A stretch of 47,115 bases of DNA, from NCBI GenBank assembly GCA_002702705.1, contig PABH01000019.1, forward strand, positions 119,192 through 166,306, read 5' to 3'. Within the stretch, counting starts at the first letter, position 1; every line of letters begins with the position of its first letter. The notes under the pieces were generated by a model. It had not been told where the DNA came from, searched no databases, and was given only the letters and a program-made list of their open reading frames with translations. The translations under genes were made by a program, and so were the position numbers. The stretch is from Anaerolineaceae bacterium. Its GTDB lineage: Bacteria; Chloroflexota; Anaerolineae; Anaerolineales; Anaerolineaceae. Shown here piece after piece: positions 15,704 through 46,888 of the stretch.

Positions 15704-15713
15704 GAAAAACTTT

Positions 15714-16910: not shown

Positions 16911-16933
16911 AATTAGGAAGAAATAAGTAGGGA

Positions 16934-20075: not shown

Positions 20076-20098
20076 GTTAAATATCAATTAGGACCAAA

Positions 20099-21277: not shown

Positions 21278-21302
21278 AAAAAATTGGTTGATGGGAGTGG
21301 AA

Positions 21303-21896: not shown

Positions 21897-21897
21897 A

Positions 21898-21933: not shown

Positions 21934-21953
21934 AAAGCTTCATCTAAATGGAT

Positions 21954-24320: not shown

Positions 24321-24567
24321 ATCACACCTGTTGTTTATTTTTTGTTTTTTATCAGTTGGGAAAAAATTATTGAGAATTTCATTAAGTTATATCACAAATG
24401 TTGTTAAAAAAAAATCGGATAAGATAATGAGATTTTTCAATTTCATGAAAACGAATAAAAGATAAAAACGATCAAAATATATTACAGAATTGAAAGTTTT
24501 CACATTGTTTCTCCCTTATATGATAAACTTATTGGTAATAAAATAGTTTTGGGTTGGTTAGATTGCG

Positions 24568-25440: not shown

Positions 25441-25852
25441 AAATTAAATTATCAATCGATCTTTGAGATTGGATTTACTTCGTTATTATCTGTGTTGAAG
25501 GTGGGGTTTTCATAAAATATTTTTTCATTGTTGTTGATTATTAAATTCCTCATTTTGCTGAGTGAAAATATTTTTATTTTTTACAGTACTCGTATATAAT
25601 CAAATTAATACTTGAACAATTTACCCATAAAGCATAATAATTCTGTCGAAAGAACTTTTTTGTTTAATTTAATCTTTTTACCTGGAATTTTTTAGTTTAT
25701 AGCTAGCTTTTTGAGTATTGTTCAAGATTAAGTTTCTTTTGCACGTCTTAAACTTTCTCTAATTTTCATACAATTCATTTTTCCCCTCTCATTTCCGTTA
25801 TTTTGTTTTTAATCAATTCTTTCTGTTTATAAATGGAGGTTAAGTTTTTATA
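25441..25852. other. AT-rich intergenic stretch upstream of the Gfo/Idh/MocA gene
   Basis: 412 bases without a credible gene. It holds a 10-bp inverted repeat (CTTGAACAAT at 25611-25620, complement at 25717-25726). The ribosome site GGAGG near 25834 precedes the next gene. No -35/-10 pair stands out from the AT background. Confidence 0.6.
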
Positions 25853-26896: not shown

Positions 26897-26907
26897 ACGA
26901 GGAAGAA

Positions 26908-28033
26908 ATGTTAAATAAAACAAAAACAATGAACGTTCCGTTCGTAGATTTGGTTGCTCAAAAACAGCAGATCGCTGTCCAGGTCCAGGAAGCCATAAAT
27001 CATGTTATTGATACTTCAACATTTATTATGGGTCCTGATTTGAGCAAGTTTGAAGAGGCATTCGCTGAATTTTGTGGTTCGGAATATGCGATTGGTGTAG
27101 ACTCTGGAACCTCTGCTTTAGAAATGATTTTACGTGCATATGAAATTGGTCCAGGCGATGAAGTGATTACTGCAGCGAATACTTTTATTGCTACTGTGTT
27201 ACCAATTTCTTATGTTGGTGCTACGCCAATATTAATTGACATGGATTCTGAAACATATAATATTGATGTTACAAAAATTGAACAAAAGATAACAAAAAAA
27301 AACAAAAGCGATCATACCAGTTCATTTATATGGACAACCAGTCGATATGGATAAAATACTGGATATCGCTAACCGACATGATTTAATCGTTATTGAAGAT
27401 GCATGCCAGGCACATGGTGCGACATACAAAGAAAAAAGGGTTGGATCAATTGGTAATGCCGCTGCCTTCAGTTTTTACCCGGCTAAAAATTTGGGAGCTT
27501 ATGGTGATGGGGGAATGGTCGTAACAAATGATTTTCAAATTTATAAAAGAATCCAAAAGCTTCGGGATTATGGGCAGGAGAAGAAATATCATCATGTTGA
27601 AATTGGATATAACCGACGGTTAGATACGCTACAAGCCGCAATTTTAAATGTTAAACTGCCTTTATTAGATCGCTGGAATGAGGCTCGCAGAGTTAATGCC
27701 GCACTTTATGGAAAATTATTAAATCATCCAAAAATTGGTTTACCGCAGGTGATTAATGATGTGGAACCAGTTTGGCACTTGTTTGTTGTTCAAGTAGATC
27801 AACGTGAAAAACTAAGGAATTATCTAAGTGAAGTAGGTATTTCTACCGGTATTCATTATCCGATACCAATTCATTTACAACCAGCTTATCAACATCTTGG
27901 ATATCAAAAAGGAAGTTTCCCCATTACAGAACAAGCTGCTGAAAGAATTATTTCCTTACCAATGTATGCAGAGTTATCTGCTGATATGGTTAGTTATGTA
28001 GTGGAAAAAACAATAGGTTTTTTGTCCGAATGA
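26908..28033 (+). pseudogene. DegT/DnrJ/EryC1-type sugar aminotransferase, frameshifted at an A9 run
   Basis: A PLP-dependent sugar aminotransferase in two frames. The first frame (26908-27354) covers FVDLVAQKQQI, the DSGTSALEMILRAYEIGPGD segment and ITAANTFIATVLPISYVGAT, then becomes nonsense after IEQKITKK. The second (open to 28033) continues as [32 protein letters not shown] and [15 protein letters not shown] with the PLP lysine. Removing one A from the nine-A run at 27294-27302 joins them into a normal protein of about 374 residues. GAGGAAG precedes the first ATG. It may be a true lesion, a homopolymer error, or a site where RNA polymerase slippage restores the frame. In the inferred pathway it is the WbpE/WlbC step. 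Confidence 0.88.
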
Positions 28034-28062
28034 AGTGAACAATATAAGGCTGGGAGGTAGTT

Positions 28063-29403
28063 ATGGAACTGATTGACTATTTAAATATTCTCCAACGTAG
28101 GAAGTGGGTTGTAATTTCAACCGTGTTTTTTGCATTATTGGTTGTTTTGGTTTCAGTTATCACAACACCGCCAAAATATACAGCGGTCACGACTGTAAGA
28201 ATTTTAACCTCTAAAGCCGGGGGCACGGATTATATTGAATACGATATTCCTTATACAGAACGATTGATGGGAACATATATAGAAATTGCTAGTAGTACCC
28301 CAGCAATGGAAGAATTAGCTGCTTCGGTTTACCGTTTGCCAAAAATTAGCGTCCGAATGATTCCCAACACAGAGTTGCTTGAGATTTCTGCTGAAGACGA
28401 AGACCCAGGACTTGTACAATATGCAGCAAATAAACTAGCAGAAATTTTGATTAGACAAAGCCGAGAAGTAGAAATAGGAAGAGCCAATCCAGTTAATATT
28501 TATGTTGTGGAACCTGCTGAAATTCCTTCCACACCATCCAGTCCAAGCCCATATTTAATTGTAGGGTTGGGTTTGGTTGTAGGAATAATAGGCGGTTTGG
28601 GATTAGCTTTTCTGTTTGATAATTTGGATACCCGTTTATATAACAAAAGACAAATCGAATCCATAACCGGACTAAAAGTAATTGGTGATATACCTGAAGA
28701 TTTAAACCGAAAAGATGGAGTATCACCCTTGTATGAAAAAGCTGGAATTCATGCAGAAGCATATCGTCGTTTGCGAACAAATATTTTTTCTTCGCAAAAA
28801 CAAAATAAGATTAAAAGTTTACTAGTAACCAGTTCGGTTGTGAAAGATGGGCGTTCTGAAATCGCTGCTAACTTGGCATTAAGTTTATCCTTAAATAACC
28901 GTCTTGTGCTTTTAATTGATGCGGATTTGCGTTCACCCTCACAGCATAAAATTTTTGGTCTGGATAATGAATTTGGTTTGAGTTATATTGATTCTGATAT
29001 AGACAAAGTTCATATCCAAAAAACGAAATATAAAAATCTTGAAATAATTACTGCAGGGAAATTACCAGTTAATCCAGTGGATCTTCTAGATGGTCCTAAG
29101 ATGATTGAATTTGTTAAATCCCTTGAGCAAAAATATGATGTTGTAATTTTTGATGCTCCTTCTTGTATTACGGTAACGGATCCAGCTGTATTAGCAGGAA
29201 TTGTTGATTCAGTCTTATTGGTTGTTCGTCACGGCTGGGTTAGACGGGAAGCATTACAAACTACGATTCAATATTTAAATAACGTAAAGGCAAATTTTGT
29301 TGGAGTTGTTGCGAATCGAACACAATTAGGAGTTAATTCACGTTTTTTTTCACAAGAAAATACGAAGATAAGATCGGATTTACCAATTATCAACAATGAG
29401 TAA
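28063..29403 (+). CDS. Wzz/tyrosine-autokinase-like chain-length protein with altered Walker A
   Basis: A 446-residue fusion. Residues 1-190 are a Wzz-type co-polymerase: membrane helix about 15-35, outside domain, helix about 164-188 with Pro-rich lead PSTPSSPSP. Residues about 225-446 are a CpsD/BY-kinase ATPase: AEAYRRLRTNI, Walker A' LLIDADLRSP (283-292) and Walker B VVIFDAPS. The Walker A position reads SSVVKDGRSEIAANLA, so the expected GKS/T is GRSE (263-266), and no tyrosine cluster is present at the C-terminus (last Tyr at 404). Kinase activity is therefore doubtful. It probably controls chain length with the polymerase that follows, whose ATG overlaps its stop codon. Confidence 0.9.
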   Translation: MELIDYLNILQRRKWVVISTVFFALLVVLVSVITTPPKYTAVTTVRILTSKAGGTDYIEYDIPYTERLMGTYIEIASSTPAMEELAASVYRLPKISVRMIPNTELLEISAEDEDPGLVQYAANKLAEILIRQSREVEIGRANPVNIYVVEPAEIPSTPSSPSPYLIVGLGLVVGIIGGLGLAFLFDNLDTRLYNKRQIESITGLKVIGDIPEDLNRKDGVSPLYEKAGIHAEAYRRLRTNIFSSQKQNKIKSLLVTSSVVKDGRSEIAANLALSLSLNNRLVLLIDADLRSPSQHKIFGLDNEFGLSYIDSDIDKVHIQKTKYKNLEIITAGKLPVNPVDLLDGPKMIEFVKSLEQKYDVVIFDAPSCITVTDPAVLAGIVDSVLLVVRHGWVRREALQTTIQYLNNVKANFVGVVANRTQLGVNSRFFSQENTKIRSDLPIINNE

Positions 29404-30878
29404 TGGAAAAACAAATGTTTCGAATTCCTGGACATCAGCAACGAACGTTTGACACGCCGATACAAGTAATTCTAGCTTCCATAGCTGGTTTACTGCTTGG
29501 TTTGATCGCGGTTACCTTTAAATCCAGTTGGATATTAATTGGTTTTTTAGCTATTTTGATGGTGATCCTAACGGTACGCAGGCCTGAACTTTCGGTTTTG
29601 ACAATCCTTTTGTTTCTATCAACAGTCATACCTGATGCAAGAATACCCATTATTAATGTCGGTCCCGGCCGTTTATATATCACTGAACTGATTTTTTTAT
29701 TATTGTTCGTGATTTTTGTAGTGCGTTGGTTAACAATTCCTACAGTTAAGGTTCAACATACACCATTAGACCTTCCGCTTTTATTATTTGTCTTTTGCGC
29801 AGTTATCACGACAATATGGTCTGTCCTGCATAACAATGTTCTTTTGCAACATGCTATACCTGAACTACGAGTGATTTTCTACTACCTGCTGTTTTTCATT
29901 GTGACAAATTTAATCACGGAAAAGAAAAATATCAAACTGTTATTACAAGGAATTAATTGGTTTGCAACCATCGTTGCTCTTGGCATGATTGTTCAATATA
30001 TGTTAGGTAGTTCAATTCCTATCTTGGAAGGCCGGGTTGAATTCTTAAGTGATCAATCAGGAATTACAAGAATTACTGATACACCGGGTGAAGCACTAAT
30101 TACATTGGTTGTTATCATCAACCTTATCCGATTGTTAAATGGAAAACTCGATAAAATCAATTATTTTGATATTATTCAGTTATTATTAATTAGCACTGCT
30201 TTAATTATGACTTTTAACCGCACCCATTGGGTAATGGTTATTATTTCTGGTTTGATTGCGGTTATTTTTATCAATTGGCATAATCGTAAAAGGATTTTAT
30301 ATTGGGGAATTGTTTTGTTTTTTCTGATTATGGCTGTGGTAAGTTTTGCTGTAATTAATCCGCAGACTTCGATTGGAAAATTGCTCAATAGTACGTTTAA
30401 CCGTGGATTAACAATCCTTCAACTCGATTCTTACCAAGAAAATGATCAGAGTACACTTCGCTGGCGGGATTTTGAGTATAAATATGGGTTTCCACAAATT
30501 GCAAAACACCCTTTGTTTGGGATGGGCCTAGGAGCCGAATATAGACCACGTTTATATGAAATTGATCATGCGAATTTTAATGGGCAGCTTTTTACACATA
30601 ACGCTCATTTATGGTTGGCAATAAAAACTGGATTGATCAGTTACAGCTTTTTTATGATTTTTATCATTGTTTTTATTTGGCGTGGGATTCATTTTTGGCG
30701 TAAGGTGGAAGACATAGACTTACGAAATACTCTACTAGGAATTACGATTGCCATGTTTGCCACACTGATTGGAGCGAATATTCATCCTTTTTATATGACT
30801 TTATTTTGGACGCCGCTCATCGGTGTTTTAATTGGTGTTGGTGAAAATATTATCCGTTTGGAACAAAAGTCTGTATAG
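29403..30878 (+). CDS. O-antigen ligase/Wzy-type polymerase
   Basis: A 491-residue protein with about 11 membrane helices. The large outside loop and the conserved segments of the Wzy_C family are visible: FNRTHWVMVIISGLIAVIFI, the FEYKYGFPQIAKHPLFGMGL region, and HNAHLWLAIKTGLISYSFFM with the HN-x-L motif before a helix. Such proteins polymerise or ligate lipid-linked glycans at the outer face of the membrane. Its ATG overlaps the preceding stop as TAATG, which couples it to the chain-length protein. It closes the polysaccharide locus; a probable terminator follows at 30918. Confidence 0.9.
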   Translation: MEKQMFRIPGHQQRTFDTPIQVILASIAGLLLGLIAVTFKSSWILIGFLAILMVILTVRRPELSVLTILLFLSTVIPDARIPIINVGPGRLYITELIFLLLFVIFVVRWLTIPTVKVQHTPLDLPLLLFVFCAVITTIWSVLHNNVLLQHAIPELRVIFYYLLFFIVTNLITEKKNIKLLLQGINWFATIVALGMIVQYMLGSSIPILEGRVEFLSDQSGITRITDTPGEALITLVVIINLIRLLNGKLDKINYFDIIQLLLISTALIMTFNRTHWVMVIISGLIAVIFINWHNRKRILYWGIVLFFLIMAVVSFAVINPQTSIGKLLNSTFNRGLTILQLDSYQENDQSTLRWRDFEYKYGFPQIAKHPLFGMGLGAEYRPRLYEIDHANFNGQLFTHNAHLWLAIKTGLISYSFFMIFIIVFIWRGIHFWRKVEDIDLRNTLLGITIAMFATLIGANIHPFYMTLFWTPLIGVLIGVGENIIRLEQKSV

Positions 30879-31194: not shown

Positions 31195-32253
31195 ATGTCT
31201 GAAAAATTATTTTTCAATCGGCGAGGGTTTTTAAAGCGGTCATTGGGTACTTTAGGTGGTGCGTTTTTGGTTGGCTGGATGCCGGTTGTGGAATCAGATT
31301 TAAAATCAGCTGTACTGCTTATCCCGAAGAATGCACTTTCGGAGGAGTCTCTTCAAATGCTTCTGAAAGGTTTAAAAACCGGATTGGAATCCTCACATCA
31401 TAGTCCGGTCCAGTTAAATGTTGTTGTGGATCAATTTTCTGTATCAGGCTTGAAGAAGTCAGTTAAGGAGATTTGTTTACAACCGAATAATCATGTCATT
31501 TTGGGATATTTTTCCCATCAACAAGTAGCCTGGATCAAACCTGTGGTGGAGGAATTTGGTAAACATCTGATTGTGATCAGTCTTGGAGAAAACAAAGTTG
31601 ATCACAGACAACAAAGCCCTTATATACATTATGTAGATTTAGGATTAAGCCGGGCGGCTTATTATTTGGGGCAGTGGAGTGCTGCGATGTTTGGAAAAAA
31701 CTGTACCATGGTTACCGAACCTCACTTAAGCGGGTATGATTATTTTTACGGCTTTCGGTCAGGATTCGAACAAATGGGTGGTGTAATAAAGGATCTCCAC
31801 TTTGTTTCCGAAACCGGTGATTTGCGAGACTATAACGAAAACCTTGGCAAAACCTCAGATTTTATTTTTACGAATCTATCTCAAGACTGTCAGGCGCTAT
31901 TTTCAAGTAGGATTAACAAACCACAAGTCAGTGTAATTGCGGGTTTATGGGGTGCCAAACAGGTGTATTCCATTAATTCTTGGGGGAATTCACATCCTTT
32001 ATCGATCTTGGGAGAAGAAACAGCCCAATTGGTCTTACAGCAGATTGAATCAAAAAACAAGTTGGGTTTTGGGCAAGTCATGTTAAGTGAACATTGTGTC
32101 TATGAAAGACCAAGTTGTAAAGTTTATCGCCGATCATCTGTGACGGAATATCAAACCTTGATGACAGAAATCTGTTTACCCTATGTAGACCAGATGGCTT
32201 TGAGTGATTTGGATCTGGTGCGCTCACAGATCAGTACACCATTGTATCTTTAG
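31195..32253 (+). CDS. Tat-exported periplasmic-binding-protein-like protein
   Basis: A 352-residue protein whose start NRRGFLKRSLGTLGGAFLVG (Arg9-Arg10) is a twin-arginine signal. The rest follows the type 1 periplasmic-binding fold used by branched-chain amino acid ABC receptors: SAVLLIPKNALSEESLQMLL as first strand and helix, NHVILGYFSHQQVAWIKPVV, LGQWSAAMFGKNCTMVTEPH, and DYFYGFRSGFEQMGGVIKDL. The last region is divergent and no ABC permease is nearby, so it is unlikely to serve import. It starts a tight run of collar-protein genes (12 bases to the next ATG) and probably works with them at the cell surface. AAGGG lies 6 bases before the ATG. Confidence 0.8.
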   Translation: MSEKLFFNRRGFLKRSLGTLGGAFLVGWMPVVESDLKSAVLLIPKNALSEESLQMLLKGLKTGLESSHHSPVQLNVVVDQFSVSGLKKSVKEICLQPNNHVILGYFSHQQVAWIKPVVEEFGKHLIVISLGENKVDHRQQSPYIHYVDLGLSRAAYYLGQWSAAMFGKNCTMVTEPHLSGYDYFYGFRSGFEQMGGVIKDLHFVSETGDLRDYNENLGKTSDFIFTNLSQDCQALFSSRINKPQVSVIAGLWGAKQVYSINSWGNSHPLSILGEETAQLVLQQIESKNKLGFGQVMLSEHCVYERPSCKVYRRSSVTEYQTLMTEICLPYVDQMALSDLDLVRSQISTPLYL

Positions 32254-32265: not shown

Positions 32266-32766
32266 ATGGCAGAACCCTTCTTAAGTGAAATTCGAATGAT
32301 GTCTTTTAATTTTGCCCCGAAAGGATGGGCGTTGTGTAACGGGCAGCTGCTGCCGATTAACCAAAATCAAGGATTATTCTCTCTTTTAGGCACCACCTTT
32401 GGAGGGGATGGGCGAGTCAACTTCGCATTACCGGATCTGCGATCCCGGGCTCCTATTCACGTAGGTTGGGGACACACCTTAGGCGAAAGAGCCGGATTGC
32501 AGTCCCATACCCTGTCATTAGCGGAATTGCCCCAGCACAACCATCAATTGGTTGCAAAAAACAATCAGGCAGATCAAAATGATCCACAAAATCGTTATTT
32601 CGCCAAATCCGCAGCGACACCTTATGGCAGTTTAGGTTCTCCAAAGTACTTGGGTGTAGGGTCTGTAACGAATAGTGGTGGCAGTCAAGCACATACGAAT
32701 ATGCAGCCTTTTCTGACCATAAATTTTTGTATTGCGTTACAGGGAATATTTCCTTCCCCGAATTAA
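32266..32766 (+). CDS. Tail-collar domain protein 1 (MdpB-like)
   Basis: A 166-residue protein of the microcystin-dependent-protein/phage-tail-collar family. Its collar domain occupies the first 60 residues: FAPKGWALCNGQLLPINQNQ, GLFSLLGTTFGGDGRVNF and ALPDLRSRAPIHVG. The C-terminal half ends in GGSQAHTNMQPFLTINFCIALQGIFPSP, the usual ending of the group. No signal peptide is present. It is the first of three paralogues spaced 9 bases apart, each with its own AGGAGAAAA-type ribosome site. Such proteins occur as free-standing triplets in many bacteria without phage structural genes. Their job is unknown; a receptor-binding or surface-fibre role is inferred from phage collars. Confidence 0.92.
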   Translation: MAEPFLSEIRMMSFNFAPKGWALCNGQLLPINQNQGLFSLLGTTFGGDGRVNFALPDLRSRAPIHVGWGHTLGERAGLQSHTLSLAELPQHNHQLVAKNNQADQNDPQNRYFAKSAATPYGSLGSPKYLGVGSVTNSGGSQAHTNMQPFLTINFCIALQGIFPSPN

Positions 32767-32775
32767 GGAGAAAAA

Positions 32776-33279
32776 ATGGCTCAACCTTATGTTGGAGAAA
32801 TTCGCATGTTTGCCGGAAACTTTGCCCCAGCAGGCTGGATGTTATGTGAAGGACAACTTTTGCCGATTTCGGAAAATGAAACTTTATTTCAATTGATTGG
32901 AACCACTTACGGTGGTGACGGTCAGACCACATTTGCACTGCCGGATTTGCGGGGGAGGATTCCCATTCATGTGGGAAATGGTTTTAATCTTGCAGAAAGC
33001 GGCGGTGTAGAAGAAGTAATATTAACCTCGAGTCAAATTCCTTCTCACACGCACAATTTAATAGCCGAATCCAGTGGGCTCCAATATACACATCCAAATA
33101 ACAGCGTTTTGGGGCAATCAGCAAAGGAAATGTATCGCGATACTTTGGATAATAATGTGGTAATGGCTAATAATTCCATATCTTCAAATGGAGGTTCCCA
33201 GCCGCACACCAATATGATGCCTTCTTTGTGTGTTAATTTTATCATTTCATTGTTTGGGATTTTCCCGAGCCCGACTTAG
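32776..33279 (+). CDS. Tail-collar domain protein 2 (MdpB-like)
   Basis: A 167-residue paralogue of its neighbours. Collar region FAPAGWMLCEGQLLPISENE, TLFQLIGTTYGGDGQTTFAL and PDLRGRIPIHVGNGF; mid region QIPSHTHNLIAES; ending GGSQPHTNMMPSLCVNFIIS, then LFGIFPSP. The middle third (about residues 95-135) differs most between the three copies and is where binding specificity would be expected. AAGGAGAAAA precedes the ATG and overlaps the end of gene 1, so the three are made from one message. Confidence 0.92.
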   Translation: MAQPYVGEIRMFAGNFAPAGWMLCEGQLLPISENETLFQLIGTTYGGDGQTTFALPDLRGRIPIHVGNGFNLAESGGVEEVILTSSQIPSHTHNLIAESSGLQYTHPNNSVLGQSAKEMYRDTLDNNVVMANNSISSNGGSQPHTNMMPSLCVNFIISLFGIFPSPT

Positions 33280-33288
33280 GAGAAAAAA

Positions 33289-33804
33289 ATGGCAGATCCA
33301 TTTATTGCAGAAATTCGAATCTTTCCTTTTAATTTTGCGCCTAAAGGATGGGCATGGTGTGATGGACAGTTGATGCCCTTATCACAAAATACGGCTTTGT
33401 TTTCTTTATTGGGCACAACCTATGGTGGAAATGGGAAATCCAATTTTGCCCTGCCCAATTTATCTGGACGAGCTCCCATGCAGCCGGGGCAGGGACCGGG
33501 ACTTTCGCTGAGAGATTTAGGCGAAACCAGCGGGAGTGAAACCGTGACACTCCTAGAATCAGAAATTCCGGCTCATAACCATGCCATCAATGTATCTCAA
33601 CGCGCCGGCGTTGACCGCGCCCCGGAAAATAATTTTTTAGGTATGCCTGACTTTCCACTATATGTAGATGGTGGTGAAACAGTATCCATGGACGGTAACG
33701 CAATATCTACAGTGGGTAGTGATCAACCGCACAATAATATGCAGCCCTATTTAACCCTGTACTTTTGTATTGCGTTACAAGGTATTTTTCCTCCTCGAAC
33801 CTAA
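33289..33804 (+). CDS. Tail-collar domain protein 3 (MdpB-like)
   Basis: A 171-residue paralogue. Collar region FAPKGWAWCDGQLMPLSQNT, ALFSLLGTTYGGNGKSNFAL and PNLSGRAPMQPGQGPGLS; EIPAHNHAINVSQRAGVDRA follows, and the ending is DQPHNNMQPYLTLYFCIALQ, then GIFPP. It has a small insertion (GPGLSLRDLGETSGSETV) relative to gene 2. Keeping three diverged copies in order, rather than near-identical duplicates, suggests a heteromeric structure; that is inference. Its stop codon abuts the GTG/ATG cluster of the acetyltransferase gene. Confidence 0.92.
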   Translation: MADPFIAEIRIFPFNFAPKGWAWCDGQLMPLSQNTALFSLLGTTYGGNGKSNFALPNLSGRAPMQPGQGPGLSLRDLGETSGSETVTLLESEIPAHNHAINVSQRAGVDRAPENNFLGMPDFPLYVDGGETVSMDGNAISTVGSDQPHNNMQPYLTLYFCIALQGIFPPRT

Positions 33805-33807
33805 GTG

Positions 33808-34305
33808 ATGATGATCCATCTTCAAAATTTTCCTAAAATTCGATTCCGAAACGAAACTCCTACAGATGAGTCCTTTTTATATCATCTCTATAGTTCAACC
33901 CGCGCTTTAGAGCTTTCTCAGGTGGATTGGAATGATGTTCAAAAAGAAACATTTTTAACCATGCAGTTCCAGGCTCAAAGAAAACATTATAGGGAATATT
34001 ATGCTGATGCTGAGTTTCTGATTATTGAAGAAGCGGGTCAGCCAGTAGGCCGGCTTTATTTACAAGATCGTGGCCAGGAAATTCGGATTGTGGATATCGC
34101 CTTAGTTCCTTCAGTACGGGGCAAGGGGATTGGAACATCAATTTTAAAACACCTGCAAGAAGCAGCCCAAAATAAACAGCAGTATTTAGGAATTCATGTG
34201 GAACGGTTTAACCCGGCACTCCATCTTTACCGGCGACTTGGGTTTAGAGAAGTTGAAGATAAAGGAGTTTATTTTTTTATGGAGTGGCGGGGAGAAAAGG
34301 AATAA
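33808..34305 (+). CDS. GNAT-family N-acetyltransferase
   Basis: A 165-residue acetyltransferase. The N-terminal IRFRNETPTDESFLYHLYSS is the typical GNAT opening, and the CoA-binding motif A is IVDIALVPSVRGKGIGTSIL (R-G-K-G-I-G), followed by IHVERFNPALHLYRRLGFRE. The substrate is unknown. The start is ambiguous between GTG 33805, ATG 33808 and ATG 33811, with no ribosome site, so translation probably depends on the collar-3 stop codon just before. Its place inside the cassette suggests it acetylates a cassette protein or its glycan; I have no direct evidence for the target. Confidence 0.85.
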   Translation: MMIHLQNFPKIRFRNETPTDESFLYHLYSSTRALELSQVDWNDVQKETFLTMQFQAQRKHYREYYADAEFLIIEEAGQPVGRLYLQDRGQEIRIVDIALVPSVRGKGIGTSILKHLQEAAQNKQQYLGIHVERFNPALHLYRRLGFREVEDKGVYFFMEWRGEKE

Positions 34306-34627: not shown

Positions 34628-37600
34628 ATGAATATATTTAACAATATTGGAAATTTAATCCTTAATCTTTTTGTGATGGTTAGTTTTATCAGCCAATCCA
34701 TGACTGGATTATTAATTCATCCAAGTATAAAGACTAGTTCAGTTAACCTATCCGTAAGTAAATCAGCCGCCTTGGTGAATGATTTTAATGATGATGGCAA
34801 ATTGAATTATGGGGAAACCCTGGAATATACATTGACCCTGATCAACCCGGGAGAAAATAACGCCTTGGATGTTTCACTTTTGGACGTTCTGGATCCAAAT
34901 TTGGTTTGGGATGGTGAGTTTTCTTCCACACCGCTAAGTTTTGGACAGGATGTTCAAACCAATGAAGATCTACCCCTAACGGTTTTTTTGACAGCATATG
35001 ATGTGGATGGTGATTCATTAACGTTTCGGATTGAAAATAATCCCATCCATGGCAGTTTAGGATCGATCACCAATACCGGTACACAAACCGCATCGGTTCA
35101 ATATATTCCATCTACTGACTATGTTGGGTTAGACCAGTTTGAATTTCAAGTGATTGATGAAAACAATCACATCAGTAATACAGCGGTTATTGAAATAACC
35201 GTGACCTCTGTCAATGACAAGCCCATTGCGGATAATCAAAGTCTATCCACCGATGAAGATACGACTTTTCCGGTAACCTTAACCGGCAGTGACCCCGAAA
35301 GTGCCGCGATTACCTTTGTCGTCATCAGCGGTCCACAACACGGCACGTTAAGTGGTATTGCTCCTAGCTTAACCTATACACCCATACTGAATTATTTTGG
35401 CAGTGACAGTTTTACCTTCCGAACGAACGATGGTGATCTGGATAGTGAACTGGCAACCATCACCATTAACGTGAATGCAGTGAATGACAAGCCTACTGCG
35501 GAAAATCAAAACGTTTACACCGATGAGGATACGACCTTACCGGTAACCTTAACCGGCAGCGATCCGGAAAGTGCCGCGATTACCTTTGCTGTCATCAGCG
35601 ATCCGCAGCATGGCACATTAAGCGGGACAGTTCCTGACCTGACCTATACCCCCGTTTCAAATTATAACGGTAGTGACAGTTTTACCTTCCGTACCCATGA
35701 TGGGGAACTGGATAGTGAACTGGCAACCATCACCATCAGTATAAATCCAGTCAATGACAAACCCATTGCGGATAACCAAAGTCTATCCACCAATGAAGAT
35801 ACACCCTTATCGATAACCTTAACCGGTAGTGACCCGGAAAGTGCGGTTATCACCTATGCTGTTATCGAAAATCCGCAACACGGCACATTAAGCGGGACAG
35901 CTCCTGACCTGACCTATACCCCGGTTTCAAATTATAACGGCAGTGACAGTTTTACCTTCCGTACCCATGATGGGGAACTGGATAGTGAACTGGCAACCAT
36001 CACTATTACCGTAAGTGCAGTCAACGACAAACCCAATGCGGATAACCAAAGCCTATCCACCGATGAAGATACACCCTTGTCGATAACTTTAACCGGCAGT
36101 GACCCAGAAAATACGGTTATCACCTATGCTGTTATAGACAACCCGCAGCACGGCACATTAAGCGGGACAGCTCCTGACCTGACCTACACCCCGGTTTCAA
36201 ATTATAACGGAAGTGACAGTTTTACCTTTCGCACCCATGATGGTGGCCTGGATAGTGAACTGGCAACCATCACCATCATCGTAAATGCCGTGAACGATAA
36301 ACCAATTGCGGATAACCAGAGTCTATCTACCAATGAGGATATTCCACTTGAAATCACGTTAACCGGTTCGGATATCGAAAACGATTTATTGTCGTTTATT
36401 GTGCAAAATAACCCTGAACATGGAATATTAACTGGTACTGCCCCTAACTTAACCTATACACCCACATTGAATTATTATGGAGAAGATAGTTTTACCTTCA
36501 TTGTAAATGATGGAGACCTGAATAGTGAGGTGGCAACCATCACTATTACCGTGAACGCGATTAACGATGCGCCAGTAGCAGCGGCAGACGCTTATACCGG
36601 GATTGGGAACACACCCTTATATGTTGGAGTGCCATTAAATGGTGCTGTTGGGGTATATGTAGATGGATCGATCTTAGCTAACGACTCTGATTCGGTAGAA
36701 AACACAAACATTGTTTATCAAAGTATTAACACCAGTACCAGCAATGGTACCGTTTCCATGAATGCGGACGGGACCTTTATTTATACGCCGGCAGTTGGAT
36801 ATTCAGGAGAGGATCAATTTACATATACAATTTGTGATGAAGGCTTTCCCCTTCCAGCCGTATGTTCGGAGGGCACCGTAACCATCACGGTGGGCACAGT
36901 TGTTTGGTATGTTGATAAAGAAGCTGATCCGAATGGTGATGGTTCGTTAGCAACACCTTTTCAGAATTTGACCGCTTTAAATAATACAACTATGGATGTA
37001 GATGATACGGGTGATGTAATTTATCTTTATTTTAACGCTGCCGCCTATCAAGGCGGTCTGCAGTTGGAAACAAATCAGCAGTTAATTGGAGCAGGGGCTG
37101 CCTTGGTAGTTGATGGGCTCGCCTTGATTGCCAAAGGTAGTACACCCACCATCAGCAATCTTAGCGGGAATGGTGTGAATTTAGCGAATGGCAATGCCAT
37201 TCAAGGTATAAAATTTGATGCAATCAGTCTAAATGCTTTATATGGAAATAACATTTCGGGTGTTGTTACGCTGAGTGACCTTGTTTTGGAAGATGCTGGT
37301 GCTTATGTATTTGATTTTATTTCTGGAACACCACAAATTACGGTTAATCAAACAATCAATAATTCAACAGGCGGTGTGTTAAGGGTAAATGGGGTGGGTA
37401 GTGGCTCATCATTTATCTTTAATCAGACTATCCAGGCGGCTGGCGGTATTGAATGTACCAATTCAAACAATACAACCATCAATTTTCCGGTTTCTGTTAG
37501 CTTGGGGAGTGCTTCCGTGCCTGTTACAACCACTTCGGCTGTTAATTTAAATTCTTGTCAGGGAACGATTAATTTTTCATCAATTAATTTGCACACCAAT

Positions 37601-40270
37601 AGTAAAACGGCAGTGAATATCCAAAATTCGAGTACTGTAACCCTTACTTCACCGGTACTCCAAGCGACCAACGCGGTTGGATATGGGGTGCGTTTTTCTG
37701 ACAGCACTGTTACGGCAACCTTTAATTCGGTCTCCATTCGCGGAACAACCACAACAGTCATGGAAACTTTGGGGGGTTACGATATCCCGGTCAATGACGG
37801 AAATGGGGATGGGGTTTTCTTAAAAAATAATACCGGCTCGCTGACAATCAATGGTGGCATAATTGAAAACAATACGGATGACGGGATCGATATAAGAAAT
37901 AGTCAAGGGTTGGTTTTAAACAACCTGACCATTCAAAATAATGGATTAAACGGGCGAGTCAAAACCGCTGGGTTAAAAATGATCAATTTATCCGGCACAA
38001 CCAATCAAGTAACGAACAGCACTTTTAATAATTTTGATCAGATTAGCGCCAGTGCGATTCGTATTATCAATAACCAGGGTTCTGCTGATTTTTTGGTAAA
38101 GAACTGTGATTTTACGAATGCTCCGACCGCAGGCAGCGGTATTCAGGCTGCTGCTGTGCAGAATGGACAGCTGGATTTGACGGTGAATGACACATCAAGT
38201 TTTAGTAATCTATACGGCGCAGCCCTAATCATGACTGTAAGTGGTACCCAACACAACAGTCTGACCATTGAAAATTCAACGTTTCAGAATGCTGCTTTAA
38301 ATGGAAATAATGGCATTTTAGCCCACGCATATGATGATACTATTTTGGACCTAACAATCCAAAATAACCAAATATCCAATGTGGCTAAGGGTTCTTATAT
38401 ATCTGCAATTGAAGTATATGGGCGTGATGCTTCTGTGATGAATGCGTCCATTTCAGGAAATATGGTTAATTCCATCCCGTACCATGCTCTAACCGCATCC
38501 TATTCTCAAACATCACTTGCATCTGCCAGCTTATTATCATTATCTGGAAATACCTGGGGTTCGGCAGGATCTGCGGTAGGAATCAGTAGCGACGAAAGTG
38601 CTCTTGAAATCGTATTTGAGAACAATGCCCGAGCGGAGTTCAGACAAAACCTGGACACAGTTTATATGACTGGAAATGTTTCTCCTTATTTTGCTGAGGA
38701 ATTGGTTATAAGGGATACAGCCAATGTGGTGGTTAAAATGGATAACAATTCCATCAGTCAAGTTAATCCAATGGGTTACGCTGCCTGGGGACTGGAATCA
38801 CGAGGATCCAGTCAAGTCTGTGTTGATTTTAATTATTTATCCAACCCTGGTTTAAATATTTTCTCTCAATCGGCAAGCGGAGTGGATTATGATTTATATA
38901 ACGATTCTTTGGGCTCAACCTTAAATGTTGTTGGATTAAGTACTATATCTAATTTTAATACAGGTATTTTAAATACACTCGGAACTATATTGGACACCGG
39001 ATTTTGTCCTTCACTAGGCGCGAGTTATAACCCTGTTGGGAAAGTAGCCGCATTACTTATGCCGGAAAAAGAAAATCAGGTTACCACAAACCGGCTTGAT
39101 TTGGCGATCGGAACCATTCCGTCAGGAGCAACCCTGGAGATTACCTTTAAGGTGCAGTTGGCAAATAACATTGCTTATGATCTTGAACAGGTAGAAAATC
39201 AGGCGGTTGTCAGCGGATCGAACTTTGAGGATGTATATAGTGATGATCCTAGTGTGGCTGGGAGTTCGGATAGTACTATTTTCCCGATTGATCTGCCACA
39301 GGTGGTTGATCTGGCTATAAATCAAACGATTAGCAGTGATTCTGATCCAGCGGTAGGTGATTCAATTGTTTGGACTGTTATCGTAATAAATAATGGACCT
39401 GCATTGTTGCCATTGGGGTATATGACAGCTGCTTTTTCCAATGGTCTGCAGTTTGATCATTTACCGGATGGATGTGTGTTGGATGGCTTACAGATAAATT
39501 GTTCCTTAACGAATTTAGCCCCTCAGGCAGTGAAGGAGTTTGTCTTTGAAAGCGAATTACTGCCGGGTGTTCAGGCTATAAATACTTTTACAAGCCGTGT
39601 CTTTACGGAGAATATTTTTGATCCAAATTTGGTAAACAACGAGGTGGCAAGTATACTCCATGTGAATGCTTGGGTGGATATTCCGGTAGACACATCTATC
39701 CAAGAGCTGCCGGTCACAACCCCAAATACAGGATCTTCCTTCTTCGGTGAATTTGGAAATGATGCAGTGACCCTCAACTTCGCTGATTTACCGAGTCATA
39801 ACCAGGTGGCCGTGTCATTCGATTTGCACATCTTCCGCACCTGGGATGGGACTGGAGAAGATTATGATCCGCCATTTGATTTGGTGAATTTTGATGAAAA
39901 ATTTACCAGCTTTGGTCCGGATTTTTGGCGGCTATCCGTTAATGATGAGCTTCGTTTGTTAGAAACCACATTTTCAAATTGGCCAACTAAATCTCAATCG
40001 TATCCAAATTGGTTTGGTGCTGGGATTCATCCTCCAAAAACCGGTGCCGATGCGGTTAATACCTTGGGGTATGATCCCCGGCGAGGTGGTGACAGTACCT
40101 ATCATTTGTCATATTTGATCCTGCACAATGAGGATGATATCAGTTTTACCTTGTCTGCGGAGGGTCTGGAAAGTCTGACCAATGAATCATGGGGCTTTAG
40201 CAATTTTCAATTAAGGGTAACCAATCTGGAAGGTGGAACGGTCTTTTATTTACCACTGATCCAAAAATAA
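34628..40270 (+). CDS. Giant secreted protein: cadherin-like repeats, parallel beta-helix, DUF11-type domains
   Basis: 1880 residues. A hydrophobic N-terminus (about 8-32) should direct export. Residues about 38-110 look like the first half of a DUF11/SdrD-type domain (GETLEYTLTLINPGENN). Then come one diverged and five near-identical cadherin-like repeats of 90 residues (about 110-645, each starting NDKP), and a further VCBS-type domain (NDAP start). From about 758 (VWYVDKEADPNGDGSLATPF) there is a long right-handed beta-helix with NNT/NNQI turns. Residues about 1470-1555 (GTIPSGATLEITFKVQLANN) match the second half of a DUF11 domain, a full DUF11 domain follows, and a beta-rich C-terminal domain ends in FYLPLIQK. 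It is the probable adhesin or surface fibre of the cassette. Confidence 0.92.
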   Translation: MNIFNNIGNLILNLFVMVSFISQSMTGLLIHPSIKTSSVNLSVSKSAALVNDFNDDGKLNYGETLEYTLTLINPGENNALDVSLLDVLDPNLVWDGEFSSTPLSFGQDVQTNEDLPLTVFLTAYDVDGDSLTFRIENNPIHGSLGSITNTGTQTASVQYIPSTDYVGLDQFEFQVIDENNHISNTAVIEITVTSVNDKPIADNQSLSTDEDTTFPVTLTGSDPESAAITFVVISGPQHGTLSGIAPSLTYTPILNYFGSDSFTFRTNDGDLDSELATITINVNAVNDKPTAENQNVYTDEDTTLPVTLTGSDPESAAITFAVISDPQHGTLSGTVPDLTYTPVSNYNGSDSFTFRTHDGELDSELATITISINPVNDKPIADNQSLSTNEDTPLSITLTGSDPESAVITYAVIENPQHGTLSGTAPDLTYTPVSNYNGSDSFTFRTHDGELDSELATITITVSAVNDKPNADNQSLSTDEDTPLSITLTGSDPENTVITYAVIDNPQHGTLSGTAPDLTYTPVSNYNGSDSFTFRTHDGGLDSELATITIIVNAVNDKPIADNQSLSTNEDIPLEITLTGSDIENDLLSFIVQNNPEHGILTGTAPNLTYTPTLNYYGEDSFTFIVNDGDLNSEVATITITVNAINDAPVAAADAYTGIGNTPLYVGVPLNGAVGVYVDGSILANDSDSVENTNIVYQSINTSTSNGTVSMNADGTFIYTPAVGYSGEDQFTYTICDEGFPLPAVCSEGTVTITVGTVVWYVDKEADPNGDGSLATPFQNLTALNNTTMDVDDTGDVIYLYFNAAAYQGGLQLETNQQLIGAGAALVVDGLALIAKGSTPTISNLSGNGVNLANGNAIQGIKFDAISLNALYGNNISGVVTLSDLVLEDAGAYVFDFISGTPQITVNQTINNSTGGVLRVNGVGSGSSFIFNQTIQAAGGIECTNSNNTTINFPVSVSLGSASVPVTTTSAVNLNSCQGTINFSSINLHTNSKTAVNIQNSSTVTLTSPVLQATNAVGYGVRFSDSTVTATFNSVSIRGTTTTVMETLGGYDIPVNDGNGDGVFLKNNTGSLTINGGIIENNTDDGIDIRNSQGLVLNNLTIQNNGLNGRVKTAGLKMINLSGTTNQVTNSTFNNFDQISASAIRIINNQGSADFLVKNCDFTNAPTAGSGIQAAAVQNGQLDLTVNDTSSFSNLYGAALIMTVSGTQHNSLTIENSTFQNAALNGNNGILAHAYDDTILDLTIQNNQISNVAKGSYISAIEVYGRDASVMNASISGNMVNSIPYHALTASYSQTSLASASLLSLSGNTWGSAGSAVGISSDESALEIVFENNARAEFRQNLDTVYMTGNVSPYFAEELVIRDTANVVVKMDNNSISQVNPMGYAAWGLESRGSSQVCVDFNYLSNPGLNIFSQSASGVDYDLYNDSLGSTLNVVGLSTISNFNTGILNTLGTILDTGFCPSLGASYNPVGKVAALLMPEKENQVTTNRLDLAIGTIPSGATLEITFKVQLANNIAYDLEQVENQAVVSGSNFEDVYSDDPSVAGSSDSTIFPIDLPQVVDLAINQTISSDSDPAVGDSIVWTVIVINNGPALLPLGYMTAAFSNGLQFDHLPDGCVLDGLQINCSLTNLAPQAVKEFVFESELLPGVQAINTFTSRVFTENIFDPNLVNNEVASILHVNAWVDIPVDTSIQELPVTTPNTGSSFFGEFGNDAVTLNFADLPSHNQVAVSFDLHIFRTWDGTGEDYDPPFDLVNFDEKFTSFGPDFWRLSVNDELRLLETTFSNWPTKSQSYPNWFGAGIHPPKTGADAVNTLGYDPRRGGDSTYHLSYLILHNEDDISFTLSAEGLESLTNESWGFSNFQLRVTNLEGGTVFYLPLIQK
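35213..36562 (+). repeat. Five tandem 270-bp repeats coding cadherin-like domains
   Basis: Units start at 35213, 35483, 35753, 36023 and 36293, each exactly 270 bp and each starting with codons for NDKP. Units 2 to 4 are nearly identical over the last 150 bp (from the codons for GTVPDLTYTP or GTAPDLTYTP onward), while units 1 and 5 are more diverged. This points to recent duplication or conversion in the centre. Copy number could differ between strains, or be miscounted in assembly. Confidence 0.92.
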
Positions 40271-43776: not shown

Positions 43777-44370
43777 CTAATAAGTGATTTCGCGTTCTGT
43801 TGTTTCGTCTTCAATCATTCGCTGGCCGCCGTTAGAGTGACAACTGGAGCAAAAATCGATTTGTTCTTCATGTGACATATGGCAAGCACGGCATTCTAAC
43901 TCACCATTATGATTATTGTGCGGGTTTCTAAAAAGATAATCGGTGGCTCTGCCCATAAATTCATAACTGATATGGCAATCCAGGCACATTTGATCATCAT
44001 ATTGTACCTTTAACAATTCTCCATTTGGGGAAACGCTATAATTTCCCAGCAAAAAATTGACTCCACTGGATATTTCAGCACCTACTGAGTAATCGTGACA
44101 CTCTTTGCATTCTACACCAGCCTGAAAGTGTACATTATCCAAATGGTTGCTGGTCAAATAGGAATTTACATTCTCGTCCATAAGGTGACAGCTACCACAA
44201 AATTCCGGACTGGTATTTGATAAATGTAACAAATATCCACCAGACGCACTGGCTGCAACAACTAGAAAAATCAGGATAATCCCAACCCCGAAACTTATTT
44301 TTACTTTCTTAAACAAGTTTTGTTTTAGCTTACCATTATTCTTTTTCGGTTCATTGTCTTGATTCTTCAT
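43777..44370 (-). CDS. Five-haem NapC/NrfH-like membrane cytochrome c
   Basis: A 197-residue membrane-anchored cytochrome. A basic N-terminus and one helix (about 27-49) are followed by five CxxCH haem sites: CGSCH (58-62), CKECH (88-92), CLDCH (129-133), CRACH (160-164) and CSSCH (174-178). CGSCHLMDENVNSYLTSNH has the CxxCHxM pattern of NapC/NrfH quinol dehydrogenases, which take electrons from the quinol pool and hand them to an outside reductase. NrfH has four haems, so the fifth site is an addition. The gene is divergent from the exported flavoenzyme gene at 44621 and is its probable electron donor. Confidence 0.92.
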   Translation of the reverse strand: MKNQDNEPKKNNGKLKQNLFKKVKISFGVGIILIFLVVAASASGGYLLHLSNTSPEFCGSCHLMDENVNSYLTSNHLDNVHFQAGVECKECHDYSVGAEISSGVNFLLGNYSVSPNGELLKVQYDDQMCLDCHISYEFMGRATDYLFRNPHNNHNGELECRACHMSHEEQIDFCSSCHSNGGQRMIEDETTEREITY

Positions 44371-44620
44371 TATAAAATCTCCTAGTTAATCAATTTGACG
44401 AAATTTTCGTTTAAGGAAACGTTAAAAATAAAATTTTATGTTTTGTGCCCGGTAAACTCGGATCTGTCTGTATAAATATAAATTATTTCTTTGTTATCTT
44501 GATTCCCCGTTAATCAAATATTCTTCCCAATTAATCAAATCGTAAAAATAAATCATTTTCGAGTGCTACTATAGGAATGCTGTTAGCCTATTATTGAATT
44601 ATTTTTTCTAAGGAGGAAAA
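44371..44620. promoter_or_regulatory. Divergent promoter region with repeated TTAATCAA motif
   Basis: A 250-base region between cytochrome and flavoenzyme genes. TTAATCAA occurs three times (44386-44393, 44510-44517, 44531-44538), the last two 21 bases apart. The middle copy forms a palindrome TTGATT-CCCCGTT-AATCAA at 44499-44517. A TGCTACTAT extended -10-like element ends at 44572, and AAGGAGG precedes the ATG at 44621. A shared operator controlling both genes is likely but unproven. Confidence 0.45.
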
Positions 44621-46888
44621 ATGTCGCAAGAAAAGAACTCAATTTCGAGAAGAGATTTTCTTAAAGGGACAACCATCGGAGCAGCTGGGATCGCTGCAAC
44701 AACACTCTTGGGTGGCTGTGCACCGAAGGTAGTGGGTGTTGAAAATTCTGGGGATGCTGGGTCTGAAGTTGTTAATTCTACTGTCGTTAAAAACCCGGTC
44801 GCTGGTGGTGAATTGATACCCCAGGCTTATCTCAATCCACAGGATTATGATTATCGGCAAAATACCACTGATTTCAAAACACTGTTTTCGCCTCTGACAA
44901 TTGGTTCTCTTACTCTCAATCATCGTATCGTCAAGTCCGCTGCAGGGTCAGCCACGTTCCTCTCCGGGTTAACCGATGAATTGTTCCAATATTATGTACA
45001 ATTCGCTAAAGGAGGCGTTGAGCTTATCTGGGTTGAAGGAGGTATTACTCAGTTCACCGCACTTGCAGACGGAAGCGAAATACCAGCCGAAACTTTTGAA
45101 TTTGGTAAAAGACTTGTTGAAGAGTGTGGAAAATACAACGCAAAGCTTGGGTTTCAGTGGGCTGAAATGGCACGGACTCCAGTTGGCGATATGACAGTTG
45201 AAGATATTGCTGCTGCTCAAACTCGAAGTGTGGCGATGGCGAAAGCGCTTCAACAAATGGGCTTTGTTGCATTGGAGATTAACGCAGCTGGTTTTAACCT
45301 TGGAGAACATTTCCTCTCTCGGTTCCATAACACACGTACAGATGAATATGGTACAGGCAGTCTGGAAAATCGTGCACGTTTCGTAACCGAAAGTTTAGAA
45401 CAGATCAAAGCAGCCTGTGGTGATGATTTTATCGTGCAAGTTCTGATTGACTGCATTGAAGAAAATGACAATCTTGACAACAGTGCTACTCTTTTTTGGC
45501 TGGATAATACAGTTACAGCCAAACAAAATATGGTTACGTCTATTGAAGAGGGGATTGGATTATCCAAATTGATTGAGGCTGCCGGTTGTGATTCAATGCA
45601 TCTTCGCTTAGGGCCTTTGGGTTATCATCCAGCCCAATTTGGGAGTGACCTTTATTTTATTTTGAACGGAGTTGAGGGTACAACCGGTTTCGGTACCCAA
45701 TATGATTTTTCAAAACATTGGCAAGGGCAGTTGATCGGCAACCACAGTGGTGCAGGTATGCTGATTGACATTGTCGGGCGTTACAAAGAAGCGCTCAATA
45801 TACCTTGTGGTACCGTCACTTACATGGATCCTGCGCATGCCCCAGATTACTTTGAGAAGGCGCTCGCCGATGGCAAAGTTGATTTCTACCTTATGAATCG
45901 TCCGCTTACCGTTGACACCGAATATATCCATAAACTGGAAGAAGGGCGTATCGACGAAATAGCCCCCTGTACACGCTGTCTGCATTGCCATATTGGAGGA
46001 AATCCTAGCAATCGCGAATTTGGATATTGTCGAGTCAACGCATTAACCCATCGCGTTATGACCGAAAATGGACCTGCAACCTACGAGCTTGAACCGGCGA
46101 AAGTTACGAAGAAAGTTTTGGTTGTCGGTGGGGGACCCGCAGGTATGGAAGCCGCTCGTATTGCAGCCGCTCGTGGTCATCAGGTCACACTTTATGAAAA
46201 GAGTGACGAACTCGGCGGAGATCTTAATTTTGCCAGCATGATTAAAGGACCGCATGAAAACCTCGAGGATCTTAAGGCTTATCTAACCAAACAACTGGAG
46301 GTACAAGGAGTGACAGTTGTTTTGAAAAAGAATGTTGATGCCAGTCTGATCAACAGTGAATCCCCAGATGTAGTAATCCTTGCCGTTGGTTCTTTGCCGG
46401 GCGACATTGGTGCAAATGGTGGCAATGTACCTGTCATCGATTTTGTCAACTTCATGGGTGAAGAAACTGGTAACAACGTTGTGGTATTTGGCTCCAATGC
46501 CCAGGCATTCGATTGTGCTTTGTGGCTTACGGTCCACAAGAAAAAGGTTACCATTGTCACACCCAACCCCAATGAGGAACTAGATAAACAGCAGTCACAG
46601 CATGCTCAACGTATGATGACTTCGACGCTCTATTCCCTTGGTGTAAAAGCATATCCAAGTTCAAAGATCAAGGAAATTGGTGACGGTCAAATCACGATTA
46701 AATCAGACGGTGGGTGGGATACAGTCATCCCTGCCGACTCGATCATCAATGCTGCAGACTTACTACCAAATAAGTCACTACTTGAAAGTATCTCGGTTAA
46801 AGAGTCTTATGCAATTGGTGATTGCGATCAGCCTTATAATATTGCTTTGGCTATCCGTGCTGGCAACAATATTGGGCGTCAAATCTAG
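44621..46888 (+). CDS. Tat-exported lipoprotein flavoenzyme, old yellow enzyme/enoate-reductase type
   Basis: 755 residues. The signal has Arg10-Arg11 (SRRDFLKG) and the lipobox LLGGC (Cys33), so it is a Tat lipoprotein. Residues about 85-440 are an OYE-like TIM barrel (LFSPLTIGSLTLNHRIVKSA; FLSRFHNTRTDEYG, GSLENRARF). Then comes a cysteine cluster (450, 453, 456, 470) for an iron-sulfur centre, an FAD domain (VLVVGGGPAGMEAARIAAAR, about 498-517) and a second dinucleotide region, as in 2,4-dienoyl-CoA reductase and BaiCD/FldZ. Two departures: the usual EIHAAHG reads EINAAGF, and the NAD(P)H-binding GxGxxG reads GSNAQAF. Electrons may thus come from the neighbouring cytochrome rather than NADH. 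The substrate is unknown, perhaps an alkene or enoate. Confidence 0.9.
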   Translation: MSQEKNSISRRDFLKGTTIGAAGIAATTLLGGCAPKVVGVENSGDAGSEVVNSTVVKNPVAGGELIPQAYLNPQDYDYRQNTTDFKTLFSPLTIGSLTLNHRIVKSAAGSATFLSGLTDELFQYYVQFAKGGVELIWVEGGITQFTALADGSEIPAETFEFGKRLVEECGKYNAKLGFQWAEMARTPVGDMTVEDIAAAQTRSVAMAKALQQMGFVALEINAAGFNLGEHFLSRFHNTRTDEYGTGSLENRARFVTESLEQIKAACGDDFIVQVLIDCIEENDNLDNSATLFWLDNTVTAKQNMVTSIEEGIGLSKLIEAAGCDSMHLRLGPLGYHPAQFGSDLYFILNGVEGTTGFGTQYDFSKHWQGQLIGNHSGAGMLIDIVGRYKEALNIPCGTVTYMDPAHAPDYFEKALADGKVDFYLMNRPLTVDTEYIHKLEEGRIDEIAPCTRCLHCHIGGNPSNREFGYCRVNALTHRVMTENGPATYELEPAKVTKKVLVVGGGPAGMEAARIAAARGHQVTLYEKSDELGGDLNFASMIKGPHENLEDLKAYLTKQLEVQGVTVVLKKNVDASLINSESPDVVILAVGSLPGDIGANGGNVPVIDFVNFMGEETGNNVVVFGSNAQAFDCALWLTVHKKKVTIVTPNPNEELDKQQSQHAQRMMTSTLYSLGVKAYPSSKIKEIGDGQITIKSDGGWDTVIPADSIINAADLLPNKSLLESISVKESYAIGDCDQPYNIALAIRAGNNIGRQI

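Follow-up and report, generated by a model that had tools for sequence, protein, structure and literature searches.

In the 47,115-nucleotide stretch analysed here (hereafter the window; contig positions 119192–166306 of PABH01000019.1, from an Anaerolineaceae bacterium), a gene for a five-haem cytochrome c lies divergent from a gene for an exported flavoenzyme of the old yellow enzyme (OYE)/FadH architecture. We lean slightly toward the view that this flavoenzyme is an extracytoplasmic reductase, fed by menaquinol and independent of NAD(P)H, which in this organism receives its electrons via the divergently encoded cytochrome. The reductase would carry FMN, a [4Fe-4S] cluster and FAD, be exported by the twin-arginine translocation (Tat) system and be held at the outside of the cytoplasmic membrane by a lipid anchor. 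Probably unable to use NAD(P)H, it would take single electrons from a membrane carrier, and in its own bacterium this carrier would most likely be the five-haem cytochrome, oxidising menaquinol. Electrons would travel from the haems to FAD or the [4Fe-4S] cluster, then to FMN and finally to an organic acceptor.

Both open reading frames (ORFs) were confirmed, encoding 197 and 755 amino acids (Table 1). Their start codons are separated by 250 bp, and each is preceded by a Shine-Dalgarno-like sequence. The cytochrome exceeds the gathering cut-off of PF03264 (39.5 versus 24.1 bits) and the cut-off of PF14537 (52.9 versus 25 bits). With these scores, a membrane segment at residues 25–43 and five CxxCH motifs, it belongs to the NapC/NrfH type. 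All five motifs are invariant across 18 aligned cytochromes, the window's own among them. The top NCBIfam model is Cgr1 (NF051471), at 54.4 bits against an equivalog cut-off of 340. A structural model of the cytochrome was poor (pLDDT 57) and was not used. We regard the protein as a likely menaquinol dehydrogenase and electron donor.

The reductase matches PF00724 (80.2 bits, cut-off 27) and PF07992 (64 bits, cut-off 26.1). Its AlphaFold2 model (mean pLDDT 86.6, mostly good beyond residue 62) aligns about equally well with trimethylamine dehydrogenase (TMADH), 2-naphthoyl-CoA reductase (NCR), FadH and histamine dehydrogenase (HADH), giving Z scores of 33–34 over ∼600 residues; the highest, 34.4 for TMADH, is level with those of the reductases. 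For FadH (1ps9), the values are Z 33.7 and a root-mean-square deviation of 2.6 over 594 residues, as expected of an OYE/FadH fold. PF00890 (FAD_binding_2) also passes its cut-off (27.4 versus 20.4 bits), but via a 41-residue Rossmann match only (residues 499–539), and the full-length protein does not have the FAD_binding_2 fold. Compared with cytosolic relatives, the loop after residue 180 is shorter and the stretch 275–395 longer; this loop is variable within the family. The original prediction, made from the letters of the window, had described a NapC/NrfH-like cytochrome with five CxxCH sites divergent from a flavoenzyme of enoate reductase architecture that carries both a Tat signal and a lipobox. 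The ORFs, the haem motifs, the domains and fold, and the sequences SRRDFLKG and LGGC all bear this out.

To see how general these features are, we compared 89 reductase copies, i.e. the window's and 88 others, with the distant L212 and L213 counted (L and G numbers denote loci and genomes). A scan of species genomes had yielded 27 loci at 41–83% identity in Anaerolineae, Clostridia (Tissierellia, Oscillospiraceae and others) and Coriobacteria. Ten of these were left out, nine because they were re-fetched from the same genome, plus L022, which stands outside all counts of 87, 88 or 89; the partial L031 was not counted either. At L022, the Tat motif is present and the 8-kb flanks contain no cytochrome match. 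In the window's taxonomic family, a reductase match at E 1e-60 was found in 6 of 147 genomes. Four of them, including the window's own, have a copy of at least 76% identity, and one of the four (G486) has a second copy at 50%; the other two hold distant Tat homologues of 34–35% overall identity. At the same threshold, a class-wide sample gave a match in the window's own genome only (1/396), with no further copy. In the family of Rubneribacter, at least one copy occurs in 38 of 138 genomes, and one Gordonibacter genome has six.

The marks of export and of cofactor binding recur throughout this set. A simple Tat pattern is present in 83 of the 89 copies. The remaining six comprise two cut by the contig start, one reading ARRNFMK and three whose ORFs are called well upstream. 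By eye, species-scan loci with a complete N-terminus show the Tat motif. Four loci of Bacillota (L017, L024, L026 and L027, from Oscillospiraceae and related metagenome-assembled genomes) keep the Tat motif and lack the lipobox, and neither the Cgr1 nor the PF03264 model matches in their genomes. Cysteines 450, 453, 456 and 470 are retained in every copy, as is His545 after the FAD motif. Haem on the reductase itself, which a CLHCH string within the Fe-S motif might suggest, was considered and rejected, as the His is kept in only 67/89 and the Cys residues belong to the cluster motif. The invariance of the haem motifs in the cytochrome alignment and the repeated presence of the Tat motif among the reductase copies show that the features of the gene pair exceed chance.

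The NAD(P)H motif GxGxxG, on the other hand, occurs in none of the 89 copies; its third position is held by Asn (76 copies), Ser (6), Gly (5), Gln (1) or Glu (1). Aligned against solved structures, FadH reads GCGGIG at this point and NCR reads GGNEIS, with Asn in the same column as the family's Asn. NCR accepts dithionite or Ti(III) and not NAD(P)H, the NADPH site of FadH is absent from it, and its residue N540 is part of a postulated donor site, according to passages of PMC6502838. Counted along our alignment, N540 is the residue in the family's Asn column. By sequence, there is thus good support both for export of the reductase and for its no longer using NAD(P)H, in line with the earlier proposal of an exported enzyme for which NAD(P)H is not the donor.

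The same cannot be said of the enoate substrate proposed with it. In the column of the FadH/NCR Tyr, which in FadH-type ene reductases we take to be catalytic, the 89 copies have Asn (70), His (10), Asp (5), Gln (3) or Thr (1), and never Tyr. Given this altered active site, enoates should not be assumed as the substrate, and we speak only of a putative organic acceptor.

The window enzyme departs from the Fe-S flavoenzymes of the OYE/FadH family in three marks, namely cluster spacing, NAD(P)H motif and Tyr. E. coli FadH (1ps9), BaiCD and BilR share its domain architecture and cofactor set (PMC11574389, in part). These enzymes, however, use NAD(P)H and have the family's cluster motif, CX2CX3CX11-13C, as opposed to CX2CX2CX13C in the window reductase (same source). 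Section 8 of that review makes no mention of exported members. NCR (6qkg) resembles the window enzyme in its three-domain fold, the missing NADPH site, a one-electron donor and Asn in place of the motif's second Gly; it differs in acting on a CoA thioester, in keeping the Tyr and in having CX2CX3C, and the passages of PMC6502838 that describe it mention no export. The cardiac glycoside reductase Cgr1/Cgr2 of Eggerthella lenta, like the window pair, combines a Tat-exported Fe-S flavoenzyme with a membrane-anchored, multihaem NapC/NrfH-like cytochrome (PMC5953540, in part). Cgr2, though, has the FAD_binding_2 fold of fumarate reductase, whereas the window enzyme has the OYE/FadH fold with FMN. 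The window reductase may thus work like Cgr1/Cgr2 without being Cgr2, as a variant on another scaffold. Among open-licence papers, we found no report of a Tat-exported OYE/FadH respiratory reductase.

What ties the reductase to the cytochrome, beyond their adjacency, is the company that such cytochromes keep. In the window's taxonomic family, a cytochrome match at E 1e-3 was obtained in 17 of 147 genomes, and a strong one (E <1e-40) in 12. We fetched the surroundings of 16 homologues from the family (L096–L111), of the window's own (L112), of one from G064 (L113) and of a weak match in G013 (L115), the last of which lacks a multihaem ORF and was left uncounted. A Tat flavoprotein directly adjoins the cytochrome in 11 of the 16 other family loci (L097, L099, L102–L108, L110 and L111). 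One gene intervenes at L098 and two at L113. At L096, L100 and L101, the cytochrome has no adjoining flavoprotein and is located between tat and ccm genes, and L109 runs to the contig end. All ten neighbouring flavoproteins that were scanned (nine of the 12 in the family, plus that of L113) are of the FAD_binding_2 type, and the three not scanned (L108, L110, L111) are 63–78% identical to one that was. G005, which belongs to the same genus as the window, holds four such cytochromes that directly adjoin a FAD_binding_2-type flavoprotein and a fifth, L098. Hence, the window cytochrome is of a kind that mostly neighbours exported flavoproteins, FAD_binding_2 elsewhere, and here the OYE-type enzyme occupies that slot. 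In a tree of the 18 cytochromes, the window's nearest relative by path, without support, is an unpartnered one from G486 (60% identity); G486 also carries a Tat-OYE, on a different contig from that cytochrome. At five loci (L096, L099–L102), the cytochrome homologue stands amid tat and ccm genes, so that genes for export and haem attachment cluster with the likely donor. TatC, CcmE and CcmF were each confirmed on one example, while TatA-like genes were recognised by eye and had no Pfam match.

The genome of the window contains one cytochrome of the NapC/NrfH/Cgr1 kind. There are 22 FAD_binding_2 matches, only one of them full length; this is SdhA (854 bits, cut-off 727), which has no Tat signal, and the others span at most 53 profile positions. 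No competing Cgr2-like Tat FAD_binding_2 partner was therefore found in this genome, a search that did not extend to molybdoenzymes or NrfA. MenA is present (365 bits versus a cut-off of 264), which makes oxidation of menaquinol by the cytochrome possible. Three cytochrome-c assembly genes (PF01578) score above cut-off; one is CcmF/NrfE-like, under NCBIfam cut-offs, and adjoins a gene that looks CcmE-like by eye.

Several observations weigh against a fixed partnership, however. The most direct is that a NapC/NrfH/Cgr1-type cytochrome was found in the fetched flanks of 0 of the 88 other reductase copies. These flanks reach at least 2.5 kb on both sides in 67 copies and less in 21, and the search included a hidden Markov model built from 41 cytochromes to catch Cgr1-type genes with unusual haem motifs. 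Nine of ten Bacillota genomes with the reductase have no match to the Cgr1 model. In two genomes with a Tat-OYE, a cytochrome of this kind has another neighbour: that of G009 adjoins a FAD_binding_2 reductase although the Tat-OYE is present on another contig, and the second such cytochrome of G486 likewise adjoins a FAD_binding_2 reductase. Finally, G445 has the reductase and no detected cytochrome, in a genome that is 76% complete.

Co-occurrence within genomes gives a mixed picture. Among the 147 genomes of the window's family, four have the reductase (at least 50% identity), 12 a strong cytochrome and three have both (Fisher P = 0.0016, or 0.015 without the window's own genome). As few genomes are involved and kinship is uncorrected, this is weak support for a partnership. 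Of the 26 reductase-bearing genomes, grouped by record titles and many of them metagenome-assembled and possibly incomplete, 15 match the Cgr1 model at E 1e-3 and five exceed its cut-off. The matches, unlinked to the reductase, fall in 12 of 13 Coriobacteria, 2 of 3 Anaerolineae and 1 of 10 Bacillota. PF03264 matches occur in six of the 26, four above cut-off, including Bacillota G086, whose NrfH-like gene adjoins another multihaem gene. Thus the conserved cytochrome–OYE pair that the original prediction implied, and whose consistent absence beside close homologues it named as grounds for refutation, was not found, either in the 27 species-scan loci or among the 88 copies. What survives of the expected co-occurrence is at the level of genome content, in Coriobacteria and Anaerolineae and not in Bacillota. 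A Tat flavoprotein adjoining a multihaem cytochrome, the Cgr1/Cgr2 arrangement, was seen for this reductase in the window's genome only. The family as a whole does not depend everywhere on this type of cytochrome; the pairing is local, and elsewhere the donor would be unlinked. In agreement with the latter, the core genome of E. lenta holds a 91.75% identical Cgr1 homologue, for which a general function such as electron transfer has been suggested (PMC5953540, in part), indicating that a donor need not be linked.

We think it rather unlikely that the adjacency is accidental and that the reductase, extracytoplasmic and without need of NAD(P)H, is served by some other carrier (another cytochrome, a flavoprotein or an iron-sulfur protein). 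The missing linkage speaks for this, as do the Bacillota genomes without a Cgr1 match, where another carrier must serve. So do three Eggerthellaceae loci (L161, L171, L174) with other multihaem genes 1.8 to ∼4 kb from the reductase; the one at L171 is weakly matched by the cytochrome profile, which also gives a weak match, lacking haem motifs, at L201. An accidental neighbour is harder to reconcile with the cytochrome being the only one of its kind in its genome, with no Tat FAD_binding_2 partner found there, and with the tendency of its homologues to adjoin Tat flavoproteins. Moreover, two given genes would be adjacent with a chance of ∼3 in 10,000, a rough figure for a 5.9-Mb genome with a gene every kb or so. 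What the homologues of the cytochrome usually neighbour speaks for the partnership, as does the failure to find a Cgr2-like partner in this genome, whereas the missing linkage in other genomes weakens it.

Clustering of the genes around the reductase at 87 homologue loci revealed no common partner beyond TM-LuxR (35 loci), LysR (9) and FAD_binding_2 (7), with one representative of each cluster scanned. The TM-LuxR gene, whose representative has a LuxR domain, lies within two genes of the reductase in these 35 loci. Ten other neighbours were scanned and had nothing in common, save one FAD_binding_2 gene. In G009 (L216:3518-6202, minus strand), an 894-residue protein with Fer4_20, Pyr_redox_2 and more 4Fe-4S domains is encoded one gene from the Tat-OYE and is possibly another electron-transfer protein.

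We consider it improbable that the enzyme works in the opposite direction, as an extracytoplasmic dehydrogenase of the TMADH/HADH kind (2tmd, 6de6) in which a substrate oxidised at FMN would pass electrons via the 4Fe-4S cluster and the cytochrome to the quinone pool. These dehydrogenases share its fold, are not NAD-dependent and, as seen for 6de6, have the CX2CX2C spacing, as opposed to CX2CX3C in FadH and NCR; TMADH also gives the top Z score, tied as it is with the reductases. Yet the Cys in the FMN segment of 6de6, presumably the covalent FMN link of this group, aligns with the conserved Gly109. Where TMADH and HADH bind ADP (PMC6502838, in part), the window enzyme has a canonical FAD motif, and cytochromes of the NapC/NrfH type draw electrons from the quinone pool and deliver them to reductases (PMC5953540, in part). 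In addition, the Eggerthellaceae paralogues often adjoin TM-LuxR regulators. Such regulators lie near Cgr2, Ber and many other flavin- or molybdenum-dependent E. lenta enzymes and are tied to reductive enzymes, with substrate-dependent activation shown for three catechol dehydroxylases (PMC9734109, in part). It is very improbable that the N-terminus misleads and the protein is simply a cytosolic, NADH-dependent enoate reductase: its fold and Pfam domains are those of the NAD(P)H-using FadH/BaiCD relatives, but the Tat motif is conserved in three phyla, and both GxGxxG and the FadH Tyr are missing from every copy. We therefore retain the menaquinol-fed reductase as our preferred reading. Of the original interpretation, export and the quinol-dehydrogenase-type cytochrome are supported, as is, by the missing GxGxxG, a donor other than NAD(P)H; the conserved pair and the enoate substrate are not supported.

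Table 1. Positions of the cytochrome and reductase genes, their motifs and the region between them, in window coordinates
Feature	Position	Strand	Basis
NapC/NrfH/Cgr1-like cytochrome c with five haems and a single N-terminal membrane helix, 197 aa	43777..44370	-	Pfam, NCBIfam, alignment
Predicted membrane anchor of cytochrome, residues 25–43, mean hydropathy 2.42	44242..44298	-	hydropathy
Haem motif 1, CGSCH, residue 58	44185..44199	-	invariant, 18-sequence alignment
Haem motif 2, CKECH, residue 88	44095..44109	-	invariant, 18-sequence alignment
Haem motif 3, CLDCH, residue 129	43972..43986	-	invariant, 18-sequence alignment
Haem motif 4, CRACH, residue 160	43879..43893	-	invariant, 18-sequence alignment
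Haem motif 5, CSSCH, residue 174	43837..43851	-	invariant, 18-sequence alignment
Divergent intergenic region with both ribosome-binding sites	44371..44620	.	sequence
Lipoprotein flavoenzyme exported by Tat, 755 aa; OYE/FadH architecture with FMN barrel, 4Fe-4S linker and FAD domain	44621..46888	+	Pfam, alignment, model
Tat motif SRRDFLKG, residues 9–16	44645..44668	+	sequence; family-wide pattern
Lipobox LGGC, residues 30–33	44708..44719	+	sequence
FMN-binding TIM barrel, residues about 83–442	44867..45946	+	model, alignment
Asn226, column of FadH/NCR Tyr	45296..45298	+	structure-based and family alignment
4Fe-4S ligands C450, C453, C456, C470 (CX2CX2CX13C)	45968..46030	+	each Cys in 89/89
FAD-binding GGGPAG	46127..46144	+	canonical motif
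His545 of KGxHxN motif, after FAD motif	46253..46255	+	His in 89/89
Second Rossmann motif GSNAQAFD replacing GxGxxG	46490..46513	+	alignment

A promoter scan gave seven matches versus 7.7 expected in the region covered, which is chance level. The contig, 166306 bases long, ends 227 bases past the reductase gene. The GC content of this gene is 0.451, compared to a mean of 0.390 for window genes (s.d. 0.042) and 0.42 over 27 stretches of the same genome; a recent horizontal gain was considered on this basis, and base composition is not decisive. The region 12465–30878 looks like an envelope polysaccharide cluster, its scanned genes encoding a sugar transferase, a Wzx-like protein, a glycosyltransferase, a Wzz/AAA protein and an O-antigen-ligase-like protein, with a BcsB-domain protein on the opposite strand at 21954–24320. 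Three tandem, related genes of 166–171 codons, forming one cluster, occupy 32266–33804, the first with a phage tail collar domain (PF07484); they are flanked by a 352-codon gene without a Pfam match (31195–32253) and a GNAT acetyltransferase gene (33805–34305). At 34628–40270 lies the gene for an 1880-residue surface-type protein with repeated Big_9/cadherin-like domains and DUF11.

Fumarate-reductase-like and molybdenum enzymes are known to let anaerobes of gut and sediment reduce organic compounds in respiration or in processes linked to it. We judge the chances to be about even that, alongside these two groups, there is a separate class of respiratory reductases outside the cytoplasm, made up of exported enzymes of the OYE/FadH fold that have been altered to take single electrons from the respiratory chain in place of NAD(P)H. 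Such a class would span Chloroflexota, Clostridia and Coriobacteriia, with up to six copies per genome in the Eggerthellaceae, and the window would hold the one side-by-side arrangement found. If this is true, these organisms have a third scaffold, one that is based on FMN and has changed residues in its active site, and the dozens of Eggerthellaceae paralogues are a sizeable unexplored pool of enzymes that might reduce drugs, polyphenols, steroids or similar compounds. The pair in the window would then provide a concrete candidate for the electron donor.

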